Assembly: GCF_004364325.1 (NCBI RefSeq)
Contig: NZ_SOCP01000002.1
Location: forward strand, 682,001-746,000
Direction: 5' to 3'
Source of the DNA: Actinophytocola oryzae
GTDB lineage: Bacteria; Actinomycetota; Actinomycetes; Mycobacteriales; Pseudonocardiaceae
Length of the DNA: 64,000 bases
This document shows, in pieces, positions 7,481-24,205 of the stretch. Numbering within the stretch: position 1 is the stretch's first letter; every line of letters begins with the position of its first letter. The position numbers were made by a program, and so were the translations under genes. The notes beneath the pieces were generated by a model. That model had not been told where the DNA came from. It did no database searches and was given only the letters and a program-made list of their open reading frames with translations.

Positions 7481-8347
7481 TCAGGAGTGCGGGCAGGTGT
7501 CCCGGTACTCCTGGATCAGCGTGCTCGGACTCGGGGCGGGGCAGAGGAACTGGTCGTACCTGGTGTCGTTGTCGATGAACCGCTTGAGCCACGAGATGCT
7601 GTACTGCGCCACGGTCGTGTTGGCGCTCGTCGGTGCGGAGTGGCTCGCGTTGTTCAGCTCCAGGTACGCCTTGTCCGGGGCGGCGGTCAGGCTCGTGTAG
7701 AACGGCTCGGCGTGCGAGGACACCGGGGCGACCGTGTCGTTCTCGGCGCCGATGATCATCGTGGGCACGCGGTCGGTCGTCCAGGACTTGGTGCCGTGCC
7801 AGGGAGTCATCGGGATCGCGGCCTGCAGCGTCGGGCGGGTGCGGGACGCGGAGAGGCTGCCGCCGCCACCCATCGAGTGGCCCATCACGCCGAGCCGCGT
7901 GGCGTCGACACGGGTTCGCACGGAGCTGGAGTTGGTCACGTAGTCGAGCGCGGCCAGCAGCTGGGTGCCCCGGCTGTCGGGCTGGTCGAGCGTCGAGAGG
8001 GTGTCGATGGTGATCACCACGAAACCCTGGGACGCCACGCGCGGCCCGAGCCACGACACGCTCGACTGCGACGCCGTGAAGCCGGGGGAGATGGCGACCG
8101 CGCCGAACGTGCCCTCCGCCGTGCTGGTGGGGTAGTAGATCGTGCCGCCGCCGAAGCCGGACACCGACGATCTGGCGACGGTGACACTGGCGGTGGCGAA
8201 CGGACCTCGGGACGCCTGGATGCTCGAGATCGTCGGCGCCGGACCGCGTTCGTAGGGGTTGGCCGCGGCCTGTGCGGCAGGCGCGGTAGCGCCCACCAGA
8301 AGCAATGCCGACGTGGACAGCGCGCAGAAGATACTGCGGATTCGCAT
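7481..8347 (-). CDS. Secreted cutinase/PETase-type polyester hydrolase
   Basis: A 288-residue alpha/beta-hydrolase with a signal peptide (~1-28, mature start near ANPYERGP). It matches the Thermobifida cutinase family (TfCut2) through its whole length. Catalytic Ser158 in GHSMGG, Asp204 in ENDT and His236 in ASHSAP are spaced +46 and +78, the same as S130/D176/H208 of TfCut2. The oxyanion residues F88 and M159, the WH of TPWH, and the C-terminal disulfide pair C269/C285 are kept. The expected role is hydrolysis of cutin or other polyesters; PET activity is possible but untested. Two pocket positions differ notably from TfCut2: A90 (Gly62 there) and S237 (Phe209 there). ATG 8347 is preceded by GCGAGG. 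Confidence 0.92.
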   Translation of the reverse strand: MRIRSIFCALSTSALLLVGATAPAAQAAANPYERGPAPTISSIQASRGPFATASVTVARSSVSGFGGGTIYYPTSTAEGTFGAVAISPGFTASQSSVSWLGPRVASQGFVVITIDTLSTLDQPDSRGTQLLAALDYVTNSSSVRTRVDATRLGVMGHSMGGGGSLSASRTRPTLQAAIPMTPWHGTKSWTTDRVPTMIIGAENDTVAPVSSHAEPFYTSLTAAPDKAYLELNNASHSAPTSANTTVAQYSISWLKRFIDNDTRYDQFLCPAPSPSTLIQEYRDTCPHS

Positions 8348-12097: not shown

Positions 12098-12874
12098 TCA
12101 GAGGGGAAGTCCTGTCACGCCCTGGATCCACGGGCGCAGCGACGGCACGTCGACGTAGATCGACGGGCTCACCGCGCAGTTGGAGCCGCCGCCGGAGCGG
12201 CTGGTGGCGCCGATCAGCTGCCACGCGCCGTTGACCGTCTTGACCTGCGGGCCGCCCGAGTCGCCGTAGCACGCACCCGCGACGCCGCCGGGGTTGCTGG
12301 TGCAGATCTCGGTCGCGCTCAGGATCCCCCCGCAGGAGCCGTCGGCCACGATCGAGGTGTTCAGCTGTTGCAGCTGGACCGGTGCGCCGCAGCCACCCGG
12401 GGTCGGGCAGGTCTGGCCCCATCCCATGATCCGCGTGAAGGTGCCGACCGGGCCGGAGCTCGCCGCGATCACGATCGGCAGGTAGGCGGCCGGTACGGTG
12501 CTCAGCCCGATCATCGCCAGGTCCTGGGACGGATGGGTGGACACCGAGGTGACCGAGACCAGCACGCCGCCGGAGGTGCGGTTGTTGCTGCCCACGCGCA
12601 GCCGCATGCTCGCGGCCGGGGTGCCCACCACGCAGTGCCGCGCGGTGACGGCCCAGTTCGGGTGCACGACCGTGGCGCCGCAGAAGTGGTTGCCGCCGAG
12701 GTCCTGCAGGGAACCCGCGAACGAGTAGGCGGGCGCCGGGCTGCCGCCGACGACGTTCGGCTGCGCACCGCCGCCCGTGGGTGGACCCGCGGCGGCCGCC
12801 GCGGGCACGGCCATCGAGGCGAACCCGAGTGCGATGGCCGTGATCAGGGCAGCGGCCAGTGAACGCAACCTCAT
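12098..12874 (-). CDS. Secreted S1-family (chymotrypsin-fold) serine protease
   Basis: 258 residues: signal peptide (~1-29), a short propeptide, then a mature chain that probably starts at VVGG (~41). The triad is His80 (TARHC), Asp118 (SQDLA) and Ser206 (GDSGGP), with several paired cysteines. The residue six before the nucleophile, which sets trypsin specificity, is Gly200 rather than Asp, so cleavage after Arg/Lys is unlikely and a chymotrypsin- or elastase-like pocket is expected. The usual TAAHC is TARHC here. ATG 12874 follows AAAGGAA. Extracellular protein digestion is the likely role. Confidence 0.93.
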   Translation of the reverse strand: MRLRSLAAALITAIALGFASMAVPAAAAAGPPTGGGAQPNVVGGSPAPAYSFAGSLQDLGGNHFCGATVVHPNWAVTARHCVVGTPAASMRLRVGSNNRTSGGVLVSVTSVSTHPSQDLAMIGLSTVPAAYLPIVIAASSGPVGTFTRIMGWGQTCPTPGGCGAPVQLQQLNTSIVADGSCGGILSATEICTSNPGGVAGACYGDSGGPQVKTVNGAWQLIGATSRSGGGSNCAVSPSIYVDVPSLRPWIQGVTGLPL

Positions 12875-13743
12875 TGTTGCCGATTCCTTTCGTGGGAGAC
12901 GGACCCCAGACAGATACAGGGCCGGTCACGAAAAGTAGCTCGCCCGTCTCGGCGCGCACAAGCGTTGGCCGGGAAATTGCATCATTCGGCAGATGGCGGG
13001 GCCGACCGACGGCACTGGTTGGCCGATGACGGTCGCGTTCGGCGGATTCCTGACGCGCCCGAAGGAATGACTTCCGGCAATCCGGAATGGTGCGGCCCGG
13101 CTCGGCATTCGCGGTTGTGGATCAATTCCGCCACCGGGTGTACGACGCTCACCCACACGGCAGAGCGGGTGTGTACGGCTCGACGGAACGCGATCCGACC
13201 GCCGTTTGGGTGTATTGATCGGGTCGAGGAGCGTCCCGCGGTTCACATCTGCACCATGTGGCGGCCATTCCCCGAGTAATTACCGAAAATTGCCGCACCT
13301 TCGCTTGGTGGCGATTTCCAACGAGGTAGTGTGAACACGTGGCGGTGTCAGCCGTGGGAAATGGTTGTCCGTCGAAACGCCTTTGGCGTGTCGGCCGGGA
13401 AGTGTGCGGGATGATCGCCTGTCGGTACTCGTTCCGGTGTGAACTCGGCGGTTCTGTCCGGGTCAGCGTGGTGTCGGCGCCGCCGTGTCGACCGCCCGGC
13501 CGCCCGCACCGCGATTCGGTGGGGTTCCCCGAAGTCGTGTTCGCTTGTCGGTACTGGTCAGTCCTCTGGGTTTCTTCCGACTGTGAATCTGGGCCGGAAG
13601 TCGAGGTGACCTTTGTGAGTATTATTCGCTTTCGCTGGGCCTGCCCGGCAGTGGCATTCGTGCGGTCGGCACCGCGATGAGGGGGGCGCAGGCAGGTGTC
13701 GAGCGTGCCGCCGTGGTCGGCCGGGGAGCGTGCCGACGTATGA
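12875..13743. other. Intergenic stretch without a supported gene
   Basis: About 870 bases, visibly less GC-biased than its surroundings. Open frames of about 100 codons exist on both strands (e.g. 13339-13680), but their third codon positions are not GC-rich and they lack a good ribosome site and recognisable protein. The right end of the stretch leads into the stem-loop beyond the small peptide gene. The left end holds the promoter of the serine protease. Confidence 0.6.
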
Positions 13744-13792
13744 CAGCTCGGTAGGCCTCGGCGTCGGGTCCGACGCGCGGCCTACCGAGCTG
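13744..13792 (-). terminator. Long stem-loop just downstream of the precursor peptide gene
   Basis: Perfect 13-bp outer arms CAGCTCGGTAGGC (13744-13756) and GCCTACCGAGCTG (13780-13792), plus an inner perfect GCGTCG/CGACGC stem (13761-13776). It starts 17 bases after the TAG of the 20-codon peptide gene on the minus strand. No clear U tract follows, so it could terminate transcription or protect the 3' end of the mRNA. Confidence 0.8.
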
Positions 13793-13809
13793 GGTGCGGC
13801 AGTCAGTTC

Positions 13810-13872
13810 CTAGTACCAGTACCACATTCGAGCCGGCCTGTCACTGAAGACGCGGCGCAGCATCGCGGTCAT
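13810..13872 (-). CDS. 20-residue candidate RiPP precursor peptide (P450-crosslinked type)
   Basis: The gene reads MTAMLRRVFSDRPARMWYWY followed by TAG. Initiation signals are excellent: AAGGAGGTGA ends six bases before the ATG at 13872. The start lies inside the last 15 codons of the P450 gene, in another frame, so translation is probably coupled. The peptide has a basic amphipathic leader and a C-terminus made only of Met, Trp and Tyr. Established comparison: tryptorubin-type atropopeptides (core Ala-Trp-Tyr-Ile-Trp-Tyr) and biarylitides come from similarly tiny precursors whose C-terminal aromatic core is crosslinked by one adjacent P450. By inference the core is about (Met-)Trp-Tyr-Trp-Tyr and the product is a crosslinked aromatic peptide. 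Unusually, the precursor gene follows the P450. Core boundaries and the leader protease are unknown. Confidence 0.85.
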   Translation of the reverse strand: MTAMLRRVFSDRPARMWYWY

Positions 13873-15016
13873 GGCGGTCACCTCCTTCGGGTGTCGAGTC
13901 GGTCCTCGGTCGACGGTGCAGGGTGAAGGGCCGGGGCACGGCACCTTCGGCCGTCAGGGCGCAGGCGTCACCTCCCGTCACGGTCAGGTGGGCGTCGCGG
14001 GTGAGGGCGGTCAGCGCCTCACTGACCAGCCCCAGTGCCACCGACGCGCCCGCGCACGTGAACGGGCCCGCGCCGAACGGCACCCAGGACCCGCGCTCGC
14101 CCAGCTCGTTCCAACGACCCGGCCGGAACGCGCCGGGCTCGGTCCAGTGGCGTTCGTCGTGGTGCAGCAGGTACGGACTGACCGACACGACGTCACCGGC
14201 GCGGAAGGACGTGCCTGCGAGGACGGCGGGACGGGAGAGGGTGCGGCCGAGCATCCACGGCACCGGCCGATGCCTGAGCGCCTCGCGCACGACCTGTTCG
14301 GCAGGCCACGGCCACGGATCCGCCCCAGACCCACAGCCGAGCAGCACCGACCACGCCAGCGTGGTGCCGACCGGCGCCACGATCGCCCGGAACATCATCA
14401 GATGCACCTCGGCCACGCGGCGATCCGTCTGGTCCCGACACGCGCCGAGAACGGCGTCGAGGAGGTCACGTGGCTCGCCGGTGCGTTGCGCCCTGCGCCG
14501 CGCGACTTCCTCGGCCACGGCCGCGACCAGCCTGCCGCGCAGTATCTCCGCCCGCGCACGCCGCCACATCCTCGGCGCGGTGAACATCACGTCGCCGTCC
14601 AGTGTCCGGTTGGCCAGCCGCCGGGTCCCGGCGGGAACCTCGGTACACAGCAGCAGCTCCGCCAGACAGCGGTACACCAGTCGGCTTCCCGCCGACGGCC
14701 ACCGGTCGGTCGCGGGCAGCTGCGCCACCGCCGTCGGCAGAGCGGCGCGGTAGCGTGGCATGCCGTCCCGCACGAAGTTACGCACCGCGTGGCCGACCTC
14801 GATCTGCGCCGCCCGTGTCGGCAGCAGGTCCCCGAAGAACCCCGACCTGTCGGCGTTGAACTCCGGGTCACGCAGCACGACCTGCGCGAGAGCAGCGTCG
14901 CCGACGCAGTGGCCGCCGCCCGGCAGCCGGATCACGTCCGTCGCGGCGTGTCGACGAAGGTCTTCGACGTATTCCAGTGGATCGCGCCGCAGCCGGCGCC
15001 TGTTCCCGAGCCCCAT
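13841..15016 (-). CDS. Cytochrome P450, candidate crosslinking enzyme for the adjacent peptide
   Basis: 391 residues, soluble bacterial P450. Heme-thiolate motif FGAGPFTCAG with Cys ~321; ExxR as EALR in the K helix; I-helix segment IVAPVGTTLAWS, which keeps the Thr but has Pro-Val in place of the usual Ala-Gly before Gly-Thr. ATG 15016 (MGLGNRRRLRRDPLEY) has a good GGAGGGGA upstream; the frame is open further up but without signals. It probably catalyses C-C, C-N or C-O coupling of the Trp/Tyr side chains in the peptide encoded by the overlapping gene; electrons must come from a ferredoxin elsewhere. The last 15 codons overlap the peptide gene. P450 identity is certain; the substrate is inferred. 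Confidence 0.92.
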   Translation of the reverse strand: MGLGNRRRLRRDPLEYVEDLRRHAATDVIRLPGGGHCVGDAALAQVVLRDPEFNADRSGFFGDLLPTRAAQIEVGHAVRNFVRDGMPRYRAALPTAVAQLPATDRWPSAGSRLVYRCLAELLLCTEVPAGTRRLANRTLDGDVMFTAPRMWRRARAEILRGRLVAAVAEEVARRRAQRTGEPRDLLDAVLGACRDQTDRRVAEVHLMMFRAIVAPVGTTLAWSVLLGCGSGADPWPWPAEQVVREALRHRPVPWMLGRTLSRPAVLAGTSFRAGDVVSVSPYLLHHDERHWTEPGAFRPGRWNELGERGSWVPFGAGPFTCAGASVALGLVSEALTALTRDAHLTVTGGDACALTAEGAVPRPFTLHRRPRTDSTPEGGDRHDRDAAPRLQ

Positions 15017-15168
15017 CGAGGATCCCCTCCGGCTCCCAACGGAGTCAGCTCTCCGCCATGAAGCTAGAAGGTTTTCCGCCGCAGCGGCATCCCCCGCCGG
15101 TTCCTTCAGCCGTCCGAGGGCCGATACCCACCCGATCCAGCGTCCACAGTGCACCCACAGTGACGCAG

Positions 15169-15196
15169 GTAGGGCCGGCGTCGCGGCCGGCCCTAC
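15169..15196 (-). terminator. Terminator hairpin after the GH43 pair
   Basis: Arms GTAGGGCCGGC (15169-15179) and GCCGGCCCTAC (15186-15196) are perfectly complementary. They sit 13 bases beyond the stop of the minus-strand GH43 gene and separate that operon from the P450/peptide genes, which therefore probably have their own promoter in 15017-15168. Confidence 0.75.
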
Positions 15197-15209
15197 CGGT
15201 GAAGGAAGT

Positions 15210-16286
15210 TCAGGGTGCGGGTTCGCCCGACGGGGCGGCGAGCGCGGTGCCCAGTCGGACCGGGGTGCCGAAGTTGGGTGTGCCGTCGGCGTTCCAGGTG
15301 AACTTCTGCGCCCGGGTCGACCGGTTCATGTCGCACCCGCCGGACGCGGAGCTGTTGGCGTGGTACACGATCCAGTCCTCGGTGCCGTCCGGAGACCGGA
15401 AGAAACCGTTGTGCCCCGGTGCGTACACACCGTTCCCGTCGCTGCGCTGGAACACCGGGTCGGCGGACTTCGTCCAGTGCGCCCGGTTGAGCGGGTCCGT
15501 GCCGGTGAGGGTGAGCAGCCCCAGCTTGTAGTCCGGTCCCCAGCACGCGCTGGCGGAGTACACGATCATGGTTCTTCCGTTGTGGTACAGCGGTTCCGCG
15601 CCTTCGTTGACCGGCGCCGTCTGCCGTTCCCACGACAGCGTCGGCTGGCTGATCGTGCGGCGCGTGCCGCTGATCGTGTACGGGTTGGACAGTGGGGTGA
15701 TGGTCAGGCTCTGGGTGCCGTCCATGGCGCTGCCCATGAGGTAGAGCCGGCCGTTGTGCTGGAGGATGCTCGGGTCCAGCTCCCACGTGCTGCCGAGGTC
15801 GGCCTTGAAGCTGTACGGTCCCATCGGGTCGCTGCCCGCGCTCTCCAGCACGTGCAGTCGCTGCGTCGGGTTGTAGTCCGACACGTTCTGCCCCGCCACG
15901 TAGTACAGGTACCAGCGGCCGTTGAGCAGGTGGAACTCCGGCGCCCACATGTTGCAGCACCCGTTGGGCCTGCCGGAGAGGGTGAACAGCACCGTGTCCG
16001 CCGCGGTGGAAAGGCCCGCCAGCGTCCGGGACCGGCGCATGGTGATCGTGGAGTTCCACGTGGTGGTGGCCAGGTAGTAGTAGCCGTTGTGGTACTGGAG
16101 CCAGGGGTCGGGGCCGTTGCGCTTGACCGGGTTGGTGAACGTGCCCGCCGCGACGTGGCTCGTCCGGTCGGGCGCGGTGGCCGAGGCCGGGGTCGCCGTC
16201 ACGGTCCCGCACAGCACGGCGGCGGTCACGGCCAGGACCAGGCCGATGCGTCCGGGCCTGCGCGGACTTCGGGTGTTCGAGGTCAT
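15210..16286 (-). CDS. Secreted GH43 alpha-L-arabinofuranosidase-like enzyme
   Basis: 358 residues: signal peptide (~1-38), then one five-bladed beta-propeller. GH43 landmarks: GPDPWLQYHNGYYYLATT near the N-terminus (base Asp), ELDPSILQHNG in the middle (pKa-modulating Asp) and VNEGAEPLYHNG (acid Glu). The overall pattern resembles secreted Streptomyces exo-1,5-alpha-L-arabinofuranosidases, so it probably trims arabinan or arabino-oligosaccharides outside the cell. ATG 16286 with GGGAGA upstream is chosen, since the signal peptide starts there. It lies 42 bases after a second GH43 gene on the same strand and shares its promoter and terminator. Confidence 0.87.
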   Translation of the reverse strand: MTSNTRSPRRPGRIGLVLAVTAAVLCGTVTATPASATAPDRTSHVAAGTFTNPVKRNGPDPWLQYHNGYYYLATTTWNSTITMRRSRTLAGLSTAADTVLFTLSGRPNGCCNMWAPEFHLLNGRWYLYYVAGQNVSDYNPTQRLHVLESAGSDPMGPYSFKADLGSTWELDPSILQHNGRLYLMGSAMDGTQSLTITPLSNPYTISGTRRTISQPTLSWERQTAPVNEGAEPLYHNGRTMIVYSASACWGPDYKLGLLTLTGTDPLNRAHWTKSADPVFQRSDGNGVYAPGHNGFFRSPDGTEDWIVYHANSSASGGCDMNRSTRAQKFTWNADGTPNFGTPVRLGTALAAPSGEPAP

Positions 16287-16328
16287 GTTCTCTCCCTTGC
16301 GACGCTGCACGGGGTCGACGATTCGTCC

Positions 16329-17288
16329 TCAGTGGAGGTAGGGCCAGCCCGCCGAGTCGATGGCGAGCAGGTTGATGCCGAGCAGTGAGGTCCCGTTGTC
16401 GGCGTAGTAGTGGTAGAACAGGACGTCACCGTCGCTGTCGGCCAGCACTTCCTGGTGGCCGGGTCCGTGGACGCTGCCCTGGCCCGCGAGGATCTCGGTG
16501 CCGCCGCCGGAGGTCATGGCGACGCCGTTGCGGTCGGTGTAGGGGCCGGTGACGCTGGTGGACCTGCCGACCATCACGCGGTAGGTACTGGCCGCGCCCT
16601 GACAGCACCGGTCGAACGAGACGAACAGGTAGTAGTAGCTGCCCCGTTTGACGATGTTCGGCGCCTCGATCGCGCCGCCGTTGCGCCCCGCGATGGCGCG
16701 GATGGTGCTGTCGGAGCGCAGGCCCGTGCTCGGGTTGAGCGCGATCATCTTGATACCAGACCAGAACGAGCCGAAGGACAGCCACCAGCGGCCCTGGTCG
16801 TCCACGACGAGGTCGGGGTCGATCGCGTTGAAGTTGTCCGACGTGCGGGACTCGATCACCAGGCCGCGGTTGGTCCAGGTGCCCGAGTTCCCGCTGCTGC
16901 TCGTGGCGAGGAAGATCGCCGAACGGTTCGAGCCGAACGTCGAGGCCGAGTAGTACAGGTAGTACTGGCCGTTGCGGTAGGACAGGTCGGGCGCCCACAG
17001 GTTGCGGCTGCCGCCCGTGTAGGTGGTCGTCCACGACGCGCCGCCGGGGAACACCGACCCGGCGTTGCGGAACGCGATGCGGTCGGTGGAGGTCTTCAGC
17101 GCGATGTCGTTGCCGGTGTGCGCCACGAGGTAGCTGCCGTCCGAGCGTCTGACCACGGTCGGGTCGTGCACGCCGACGTCGCCGGTCACCCGGCCGGGCA
17201 GGGGATAGGCCGACGCCGCGGGTGCCAGCACGACGGTCAGTGCCACCGCGCCCACCACGGCCAGGGCATGTCTTCTCAGTGAGACCAC
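16329..17288 (-). CDS. Secreted GH43 endo-1,5-alpha-L-arabinanase-like enzyme
   Basis: 319 residues with a signal peptide (~1-28, ending APAASA) and a single GH43 propeller. Motifs: GVHDPTVVRRSDGSYLVAHT (base Asp), NAIDPDLVVDDQGRWWLSFGS (second Asp), IEAPNIVKRGSYYYLF, and a late Glu in HGPGHQEV. This is the layout of bacterial endo-arabinanases. GTG 17288, preceded by GAGGGA, is preferred because upstream in-frame sequence would precede the signal peptide. With the downstream arabinofuranosidase it forms a two-gene arabinan-degrading operon, likely repressed through the LacI-type sites upstream. Confidence 0.88.
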   Translation of the reverse strand: MVSLRRHALAVVGAVALTVVLAPAASAYPLPGRVTGDVGVHDPTVVRRSDGSYLVAHTGNDIALKTSTDRIAFRNAGSVFPGGASWTTTYTGGSRNLWAPDLSYRNGQYYLYYSASTFGSNRSAIFLATSSSGNSGTWTNRGLVIESRTSDNFNAIDPDLVVDDQGRWWLSFGSFWSGIKMIALNPSTGLRSDSTIRAIAGRNGGAIEAPNIVKRGSYYYLFVSFDRCCQGAASTYRVMVGRSTSVTGPYTDRNGVAMTSGGGTEILAGQGSVHGPGHQEVLADSDGDVLFYHYYADNGTSLLGINLLAIDSAGWPYLH

Positions 17289-23029: not shown

Positions 23030-24205
23030 ATGAGCAGTCTCAGCAGAAGGAACGTCCTCTCGCTCGGCGTGGCCCTGGGGCTGGTGAGCGCCGTGGGCGC
23101 CGTCCCGGCCTGGGCGGCGGAAACCGACCCCTGGTGGACGTGGGACGACGAGGTGGACCGCCTGATGGCGGGGTTCCTGGACGGCGGTCAGGTTCCGGCG
23201 ATCAACACCGCGATGCGGTCGTGGGTGGACAACGACGACCCGCTGCCCGGTGGTCTGCCCGCCACGCTCGCGGCGTATCTCCAGCAGGTCAACAGGCTCC
23301 CGTCGTGGGCGGACCGAACCAAGCTGCGCCTCGCGGCCGACTTCAACCGCCGCAAGGACACGTACCTGTTCATGCTGTACGGGCTGGGCAGCGGCATCAT
23401 GAGCACGGTGATCCCGCGCGAGGCGAAGTCGGTGTACTGGTCCGCGGGCGGTGCCGACATGCAGGACCGCGCGGCGAAGACGTTCACGTTCGGCTACGAC
23501 CTGAGCGACCGCAACGCCTTCGAACCGACGGGCCAGTTCGTGGTCACGGCCAACAAGACCCGCCTGGTGCACGCGGCGGTGCGTCACCTGCTGCCGAGGT
23601 CGTCGCACTGGCAGGCGGTGGCGGACGAGCAGGTCCCGATCAGCAACGGCGACATCCTGGTCACGTTCCACAGCCTGGGGACGTTCGTGCACAGGAAGCT
23701 GATCGAGTGGCACGTCCCGATGTCGGCGGCGGACGAGGAGGCATTCCTGCACTCGTGGCAGGTCGCGATCCACCTGCTCGGCGTGCGGGACGAGTTCATC
23801 CCGAAGACGTGGGCGGCGGCGGACGCGCAGTCGGCGCAGGTGCTCACGCCGATCCTCAGCCCGTCGTTCGAGGGCAAGGAACTGGCCGAGGACCTGCTGG
23901 GGCTGACCGCACAGATCGACCTGGGCGTAACCCGGGGTTTCCTCAACGAGTTCGTGCGGTACGTGCTGAGCGACCAGGTGGGCGACTGGCTACAGCTGCC
24001 ACGCGACTACGCGGCGGCGGCGCTCATCCGCACGGGGTGGCCCGCGTACATCGCGTTCCGGGAGGGCCTGCTGCCGGTGATGCCGGTCGGTTTCTCCATG
24101 TTCGATCAGTTCATCCGCGCAATGGCGATGCTGTTCCTCAACAAGGCCACCTCCCCGACCGCGACCCTGATCACGATCCCCACCGGCAACCGCCCGGAAG
24201 CCTGA
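23030..24205 (+). CDS. lcp: Latex-clearing protein, rubber oxygenase (Lcp)
   Basis: 391 residues with a twin-arginine signal (SRRNVLSLG, cleavage near AWAA, ~30), so it is exported folded with its heme b. The fold is DUF2236/MpaB-like. The catalytic set of Streptomyces K30 Lcp is kept with one constant offset of 17: E131 (E148), R147 (R164), K150 (K167), T151 (T168) and the proximal heme ligand H181 (H198, in TRLVHAAVRH). Lcp cleaves cis-1,4-polyisoprene endo-wise, giving oligoisoprenoids with aldehyde and ketone ends. The start is the ATG directly before the Tat motif. It is monocistronic and divergent from a double-TetR gene. Confidence 0.93.
   Translation: MSSLSRRNVLSLGVALGLVSAVGAVPAWAAETDPWWTWDDEVDRLMAGFLDGGQVPAINTAMRSWVDNDDPLPGGLPATLAAYLQQVNRLPSWADRTKLRLAADFNRRKDTYLFMLYGLGSGIMSTVIPREAKSVYWSAGGADMQDRAAKTFTFGYDLSDRNAFEPTGQFVVTANKTRLVHAAVRHLLPRSSHWQAVADEQVPISNGDILVTFHSLGTFVHRKLIEWHVPMSAADEEAFLHSWQVAIHLLGVRDEFIPKTWAAADAQSAQVLTPILSPSFEGKELAEDLLGLTAQIDLGVTRGFLNEFVRYVLSDQVGDWLQLPRDYAAAALIRTGWPAYIAFREGLLPVMPVGFSMFDQFIRAMAMLFLNKATSPTATLITIPTGNRPEA

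Follow-up and report, generated by a model that had tools for sequence, protein, structure and literature searches.

Does a reading frame of only 20 codons, which starts inside a cytochrome P450 gene of Actinophytocola oryzae and ends in a row of aromatic residues, constitute a real gene, and what would the P450 make of its product? A preliminary description of the region had picked out the pair as a minimal cassette of a P450 and a precursor with an aromatic C-terminal core, and had related it to the atropopeptides and biarylitides. Here, we present a comparative analysis of this cassette. The window denotes the whole stretch of 64,000 nucleotides that was analysed, and all positions refer to it.

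Organization of the locus

The cassette lies on the minus strand and comprises the following features:

13841..15016, minus strand: cytochrome P450 gene of 391 aa (ATG at 15016, TGA at 13843-13841; Pfam PF00067, E 3.7e-21)
13878..13887, minus strand: ribosome-binding site AAGGAGGTGA inside the P450 frame, read directly
13810..13872, minus strand: precursor gene of 20 codons, MTAMLRRVFSDRPARMWYWY (ATG at 13872, TAG at 13810), read directly and seen as homologous frames in relatives
13825..13872, minus strand: predicted leader MTAMLRRVFSDRPARM, with a conserved register; Met16 may stay on the product
13813..13824, minus strand: predicted core WYWY (Trp17, Tyr18, Trp19, Tyr20), after the W-x-W pattern of the homologues
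about 13744..13792, minus strand: GC-rich hairpin without a T-run, located 17 nt downstream of the small-gene stop codon and built on an outer stem of 14 bp

The frame described before, running from 13872 to 13810 and starting inside the P450 gene, was confirmed, and the two genes overlap by 32 nt. The ribosome-binding site announced in front of its ATG is present as well, but the spacer read directly from the minus strand comprises 5 bases (CCGCC) and not six. A purine-rich site of like kind precedes the small gene in the relatives, among those listed. The DNA word TGGNNNTGGNNNTAG occurs in 38 copies in the 10.7 Mb genome and the reversed word in 306, and TGGTACTGGTACTAG is encoded by a single one of the 38 copies of TGGNNNTGGNNNTAG, which is the one in the window. 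The 20-codon frame was likely overlooked by standard annotation. In a form extended to 44 aa it matched no NCBIfam model, and a protein database search, a weak test with its artificially extended query, returned no homologue of the small frame.

The strong stem-loop reported just past the small gene was also recovered, with z = -7.3 against dinucleotide shuffles. It is not reported by a consensus terminator scan, and an Rfam scan of positions 12900-16400 gave no match.

The P450 shows the ExxR motif (E245, R248) and the heme-binding Cys321, which are invariant across 34 aligned sequences. P450s usually carry an acid-alcohol motif in the I helix. This motif is not seen in the window P450 (RAIVAPVGTTLAW); its absence would suit radical coupling more than oxygen insertion. 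The P450 fold is confirmed by an AlphaFold model (mean pLDDT 77.5, with the heme-loop region 282-322 below 50) and by Foldseek, where the descriptions of the best 50 matches include no cross-linker of peptides. By sequence, the closest PDB entry is 9ulw (E 1.1e-27), which has no name beyond Cytochrome P450. A paralogous P450 with 36% identity is found elsewhere in the same genome (locus L002, 1483-2589). A scripted frame search detected no aromatic small frame beside it, and by eye it is followed by a gene for a trypsin-like secreted protein.

Conservation of the gene pair

Whole-genome searches with the window P450 at a threshold of E <= 1e-50, in genome draws that overlap, gave matches in 18 of 390 genomes of the window's own family (its own genome included), in 3 of 394 genomes of the class (the window's own among them), in 12 of 394 genomes of the family of genome G758 and in 11 of 315 genomes of the genus of G758, which is Streptomyces by the named matches. 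The 191 genomes searched from another family of the order yielded none at this threshold. The distribution of the cassette is patchy, since the five other genomes listed for the window's genus showed no P450 match. A scan of genome contigs gave two named loci, from Amycolatopsis anabasis and Saccharothrix luteola. Altogether, 42 loci were examined, from which the duplicates L014 and L023 were dropped to leave 40 distinct ones.

Small frames were accepted as candidates when they comprised 12-40 codons near the end of the P450 gene, contained the motif R..(F/L/I) and had a Trp near the C-terminus. A homologous frame of this kind is located directly behind the related P450 in 38 of the 40 distinct loci. 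The motif itself was partly a selection rule, whereas its fixed spacing to the first Trp played no part in the selection: all 38 members have Arg at motif position 2 and their first core Trp at position 12, 10 residues after this invariant Arg. In addition, position 8 is Pro in 36 of the 38. The residue preceding Trp17 is Met in the window precursor and Arg in 24 of the 38 family members. Codon-position counts were made within clades, all-pairs statistics being uninformative. Of the base differences between pairs, 52 of 76 fall on third positions in the WYWY clade of Streptomyces, which has seven members; the values for two further small clades are 30 of 62 and 30 of 58, and the remaining three clades have no third-position bias. 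Loci L040 and L058, whose P450s are 36-37% identical, lack a frame of the family type. Different small frames follow their P450s at a distance of 5 nt and end in YMHWYVYHHI and AWRIW, respectively. At L040, a further gene just downstream may be a second P450, as judged by eye.

Because the homologous frame recurs to this extent, the small frame is to be regarded as a real gene, and the minimal cassette proposed in the preliminary description gains support from the same pairs. Absence of the frame from relatives with a retained P450, which had been named there as grounds for giving the proposal up, is not the pattern found. An open frame arising by chance in DNA of high GC content would suit the 20 codons, the overlap with another gene and the lack of homologues in the weak database search. 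The 38 loci with their constant register, ribosome-binding site and hairpin speak against such an origin, so that its probability is negligible and we consider it refuted by conservation.

The order of P450 and then precursor is kept in all 38 family loci. The gap between P450 stop and small-gene start ranges from -73 to +46 nt, with an outlier of +163 nt at L039, whose P450 frame is truncated. As this gap varies, the overlap is incidental in a family with a fixed gene order. The P450-first, overlapping arrangement had been seen as a departure from known clusters; the order proved to be the rule in this family, and conservation does not extend to the overlap.

The hairpin belongs to the same pattern. 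Folding of the 75 nt that follow the small gene gives z < -2 in 34 of 38 loci, a value which is reached by 1 of 38 controls taken inside the P450 and by 2 of 37 taken 200 nt further on, where one locus was too short. Likely, it acts as a terminator or as a protector of the mRNA end and closes the cassette.

For the wider surroundings, 21 neighbourhoods of 13.6-15.5 kb each were compared by frames of at least 80 codons. A GC-filtered frame set was discarded, as it recovered the P450 in 12 of the 21 neighbourhoods only, and two large groups of antisense frames were judged on the 22 members listed. Groups present in more than 5 of the 21 neighbourhoods consist of the P450 and of frames overlapping it, among the members listed. 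Neither a protease nor a transporter recurs beside the cassette in more than 5 of 21. The conserved unit consists of P450, precursor and hairpin, because order and hairpin are kept and no other gene recurs broadly.

The window itself contains several further genes in this region. Downstream in the direction of the P450, a trypsin-like protease (Pfam PF00089) is encoded on the minus strand at 12098-12874. Cleavage after Arg15 would suit this enzyme, but it does not recur beside other cassettes and was rejected as the leader protease. Two tandem genes for GH43 glycosyl hydrolases are located upstream of the P450 (15210-17432, minus strand). In addition, the window encodes a PET hydrolase-like protein (7481-8347, minus strand; Pfam PF12740, 404 bits) and a protein with an MpaB/rubber oxygenase-like catalytic domain (23030-24205, plus strand; Pfam PF09995).

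These data also bear on a regulatory role of the small frame, in which the Trp and Tyr codons before the hairpin would serve as an attenuator within a leader peptide. Such a role finds some backing in the shortness of the frame, the close Trp codons and the strong hairpin 17 nt behind them. An attenuator, however, precedes the gene that it controls; here, the one gene with broad conservation is located upstream, and none besides it is found in more than 5 of the 21 neighbourhoods. Furthermore, the leader register is kept up to the first Trp, a constancy which attenuation does not need. On gene order, neighbourhood and leader conservation, this function is very improbable and was rejected.

Relation to known P450-modified peptides

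The closest relatives of the window P450 point to one class of RiPPs. The P450s of Amycolatopsis xylanica, Streptoalloteichus hindustanus and Streptomyces spectabilis are described in a review to make two C-N bonds, of which one connects Trp C2 with the backbone N of the same residue and the other Trp(i) C3 with Trp(i+2) N1; the work on this axy type is attributed there to Hu et al., JACS 2023 (PMC11002830). In a protein search, the window P450 was 61% identical to P0049 of A. xylanica and 65% identical to P0032 of S. hindustanus. P0049 is 99.7% identical to the P450 of L018, the A. xylanica locus with the core WNW, and P0032 is 99.7% identical to the P450 of L011, the S. hindustanus locus with the core WDW. 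By species, clade and W-x-W core, P0049 and P0032 are apparently the reviewed enzymes of these two species.

In the P450 tree, the family forms a single clade of 38 rows with a support of 100/100. The nearest row to the window P450 by path is L011; the support for this pairing is 87/28, and that for the enclosing set of eight rows is 99/96. The window P450 groups with the enzymes of A. xylanica and S. hindustanus, and its precursor has two Trp at i and i+2. Since the clade includes species with a reported Trp(i)-Trp(i+2) linkage, the window cassette is most likely a new member, with the core WYWY, of a known class of Trp-Trp cross-linking P450s. With the loci of A. xylanica and S. hindustanus it shares the P450 clade, the P450-first order, the leader motif and the W-x-W core. 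It differs in its core WYWY preceded by Met, whereas the precursor of A. xylanica ends in W-N-W and that of S. hindustanus in W-D-W.

The core had been called unfamiliar in the preliminary description; cores of its W-x-W type have probably been published before. The WYWY core itself may have been studied already, because all seven W-x-W members found here in Streptomyces are WYWY. A literature search, which left most subscription journals outside its coverage and so does not show absence from print, gave no paper on WxW together with P450s and RiPPs and no occurrence of WYWY in the 15 listed of 190 papers.

The proposed kinship with atropopeptides was not borne out. Atropopeptides are defined by a KSLK-type leader motif and a core xWxxxx, mostly with WxxW or WxxY (PMC11450843). 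As controls we used loci with the tryptorubin core AWYIWY from the Streptomyces genus searched above, in which 8 of 295 genomes contained this core. All eight have KSLK and a precursor located before the P450, and their P450s, one of them partial (214 aa), form a clade of their own with a support of 100/100 on a branch of length 3.36. The window leader MTAMLRRVFSDRPARM lacks KSLK, and the core WYWY has the spacing W-x-W and stops at its fourth residue, short of the xWxxxx pattern. What the window family has in common with the atropopeptides tryptorubin, amyxirubin and scabrirubin is the two-gene cassette of a P450 and a short precursor with an aromatic C-terminal core; the atropopeptides differ by KSLK, W-x-x-W and a precursor before the P450, in contrast to a family without KSLK, with W-x-W and with the precursor behind. 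On leader motif, core pattern, separate P450 clade and reversed gene order, membership was rejected. Three Streptomyces genomes (G1195, G1164 and G1175) carry a tryptorubin-type core together with a family cassette (L053/L046, L055/L041 and L056/L044, respectively).

Cittilins have a core of the YIYY type, and that of the window is WYWY. With the biarylitides the cassette shares the character of a minimal RiPP that has a P450 as its cross-linker and a precursor gene missed by annotation. The precursor of the biarylitides is described as a pentapeptide (PMC13417212), compared with 20 residues including a leader of about 16 in the window, and membership, which had been proposed as well, was likewise rejected. 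ApyO, the P450 of the aminopyruvatides, is reported to cross-link aromatic residues i and i+2 of a substrate in which it needs a basic residue (PMC13192836). Both the i/i+2 cross-link, predicted for the window, and the basic residue are shared, and this need of ApyO fits the invariant leader Arg. In contrast, the window P450 scores 69 bits against the ApyO model NCBIfam NF050147, far below its cut-off of 525, and a Pfam scan of 16 window proteins gave no match to MNIO or B12-radical-SAM proteins.

Core types and spacing of the tryptophans

The family cores are not uniform. W-x-W is present in 28 of the 38 members, the window included; four cores are W-x4-W (WDPPVW twice, WEPNVW and WEPDVW), four are W-x5-W, such as WNPKDPW, one is W-x6-W (WSSSGSDW) and one has a single Trp (WFRAS, L057). 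W-x-x-W was found in none of the 38. The L057 precursor, judged from its sequence, cannot form an intramolecular Trp-Trp bond. In the 28 W-x-W cores the two Trp are constant, and x is Y, N, D, K, F or I. A Tyr at x is accompanied by one at +3 in 13 of 13 cases, and neither is present in the other 15 W-x-W cores (0/15). Each core Tyr changes four times on the P450 tree, with only two independent pairs on well supported branches.

The members with long spacing or a single Trp form one P450 clade (10 rows, support 99/98), which indicates that the Trp-Trp spacing tracks the enzyme. Precursors with Trp spaced by 4, 5 or 6 residues in this sister clade belong to L034, L035, L036, L037, L038, L039, L055, L056 and L030, and the sister-clade precursors keep the leader register of the family.

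Proposed mechanism

Taking these comparisons together, we consider it probable that the locus is a two-gene cassette in which the small gene encodes a RiPP precursor and the P450 cross-links the core (M)WYWY between Trp17 and Trp19. Both genes would be transcribed as a single RNA ended by the hairpin, and the strong internal ribosome-binding site would allow separate initiation at the small gene. The Arg-rich leader may dock on the P450, so that the fixed distance of 10 residues from the second leader Arg would place Trp17 at the heme. The P450 would then make two C-N bonds, one between C2 of Trp17 and the backbone N of the same residue, the other between C3 of Trp17 and N1 of Trp19. This bond pattern is transferred from the P450s of A. 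xylanica and S. hindustanus, and we infer its application to WYWY. The masses given earlier for the product before crosslinking were recalculated and are correct (calculated [M+H]+ of 717.303 for WYWY and 848.344 for MWYWY). With a net loss of 2 H and no oxygen added, the cross-linked products are predicted at 715.288 (WYWY) and 846.328 (MWYWY). The leader would be trimmed by an enzyme encoded elsewhere.

Other bonds are possible in view of the two Tyr of the window core, which are absent from the WNW and WDW relatives. One variant, tentative and on balance unlikely, is that the products of the WYWY branch are doubly bridged, cage-like tetrapeptides in which one P450 forms both Trp17-Trp19 and Tyr18-Tyr20, while enzymes of the sister clade bridge Trp 5-7 positions apart. 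A Tyr18-Tyr20 bond would account for the strictly joint gain or loss of these two residues. The double bridge would correspond to a net loss of 4 H and a mass of 713.272 for WYWY, and one P450 family would serve a graded set of ring sizes.

The same cassette might instead lead to a different linkage, such as an atropopeptide-like biaryl (Trp C7-Trp N1 or Trp-Tyr) or a Tyr-Tyr bond. Bonds of this kind are described for the P450s of other families of peptides (PMC11002830, PMC12352619), and the strict co-occurrence of the two Tyr (13/13) would agree with them. Nevertheless, the clade of the window P450 is separate from the eight tryptorubin-type P450s, W-x-x-W is absent from the 38 cores, and within the 28 W-x-W members it is the two Trp that stay constant while x varies, which makes such a linkage rather improbable.

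Significance

The Trp17-Trp19 cross-link, if formed as proposed, adds the core WYWY to a class of P450 cross-linkers with an unusual Trp-Trp C-N chemistry. The pair of P450 and small gene recurs in dozens of related actinomycete bacteria. Genes of this type escape genome mining, as the precursor can overlap the enzyme gene and has no KSLK-type motif; the published CoreFinder rules drop frames that overlap annotated genes and require a KSLK-type motif in the second round (PMC11450843). The 38 pairs of enzyme and precursor combine a constant leader register with a variable Trp-Trp spacing and would provide a natural ruler for how one P450 scaffold sets the ring size.
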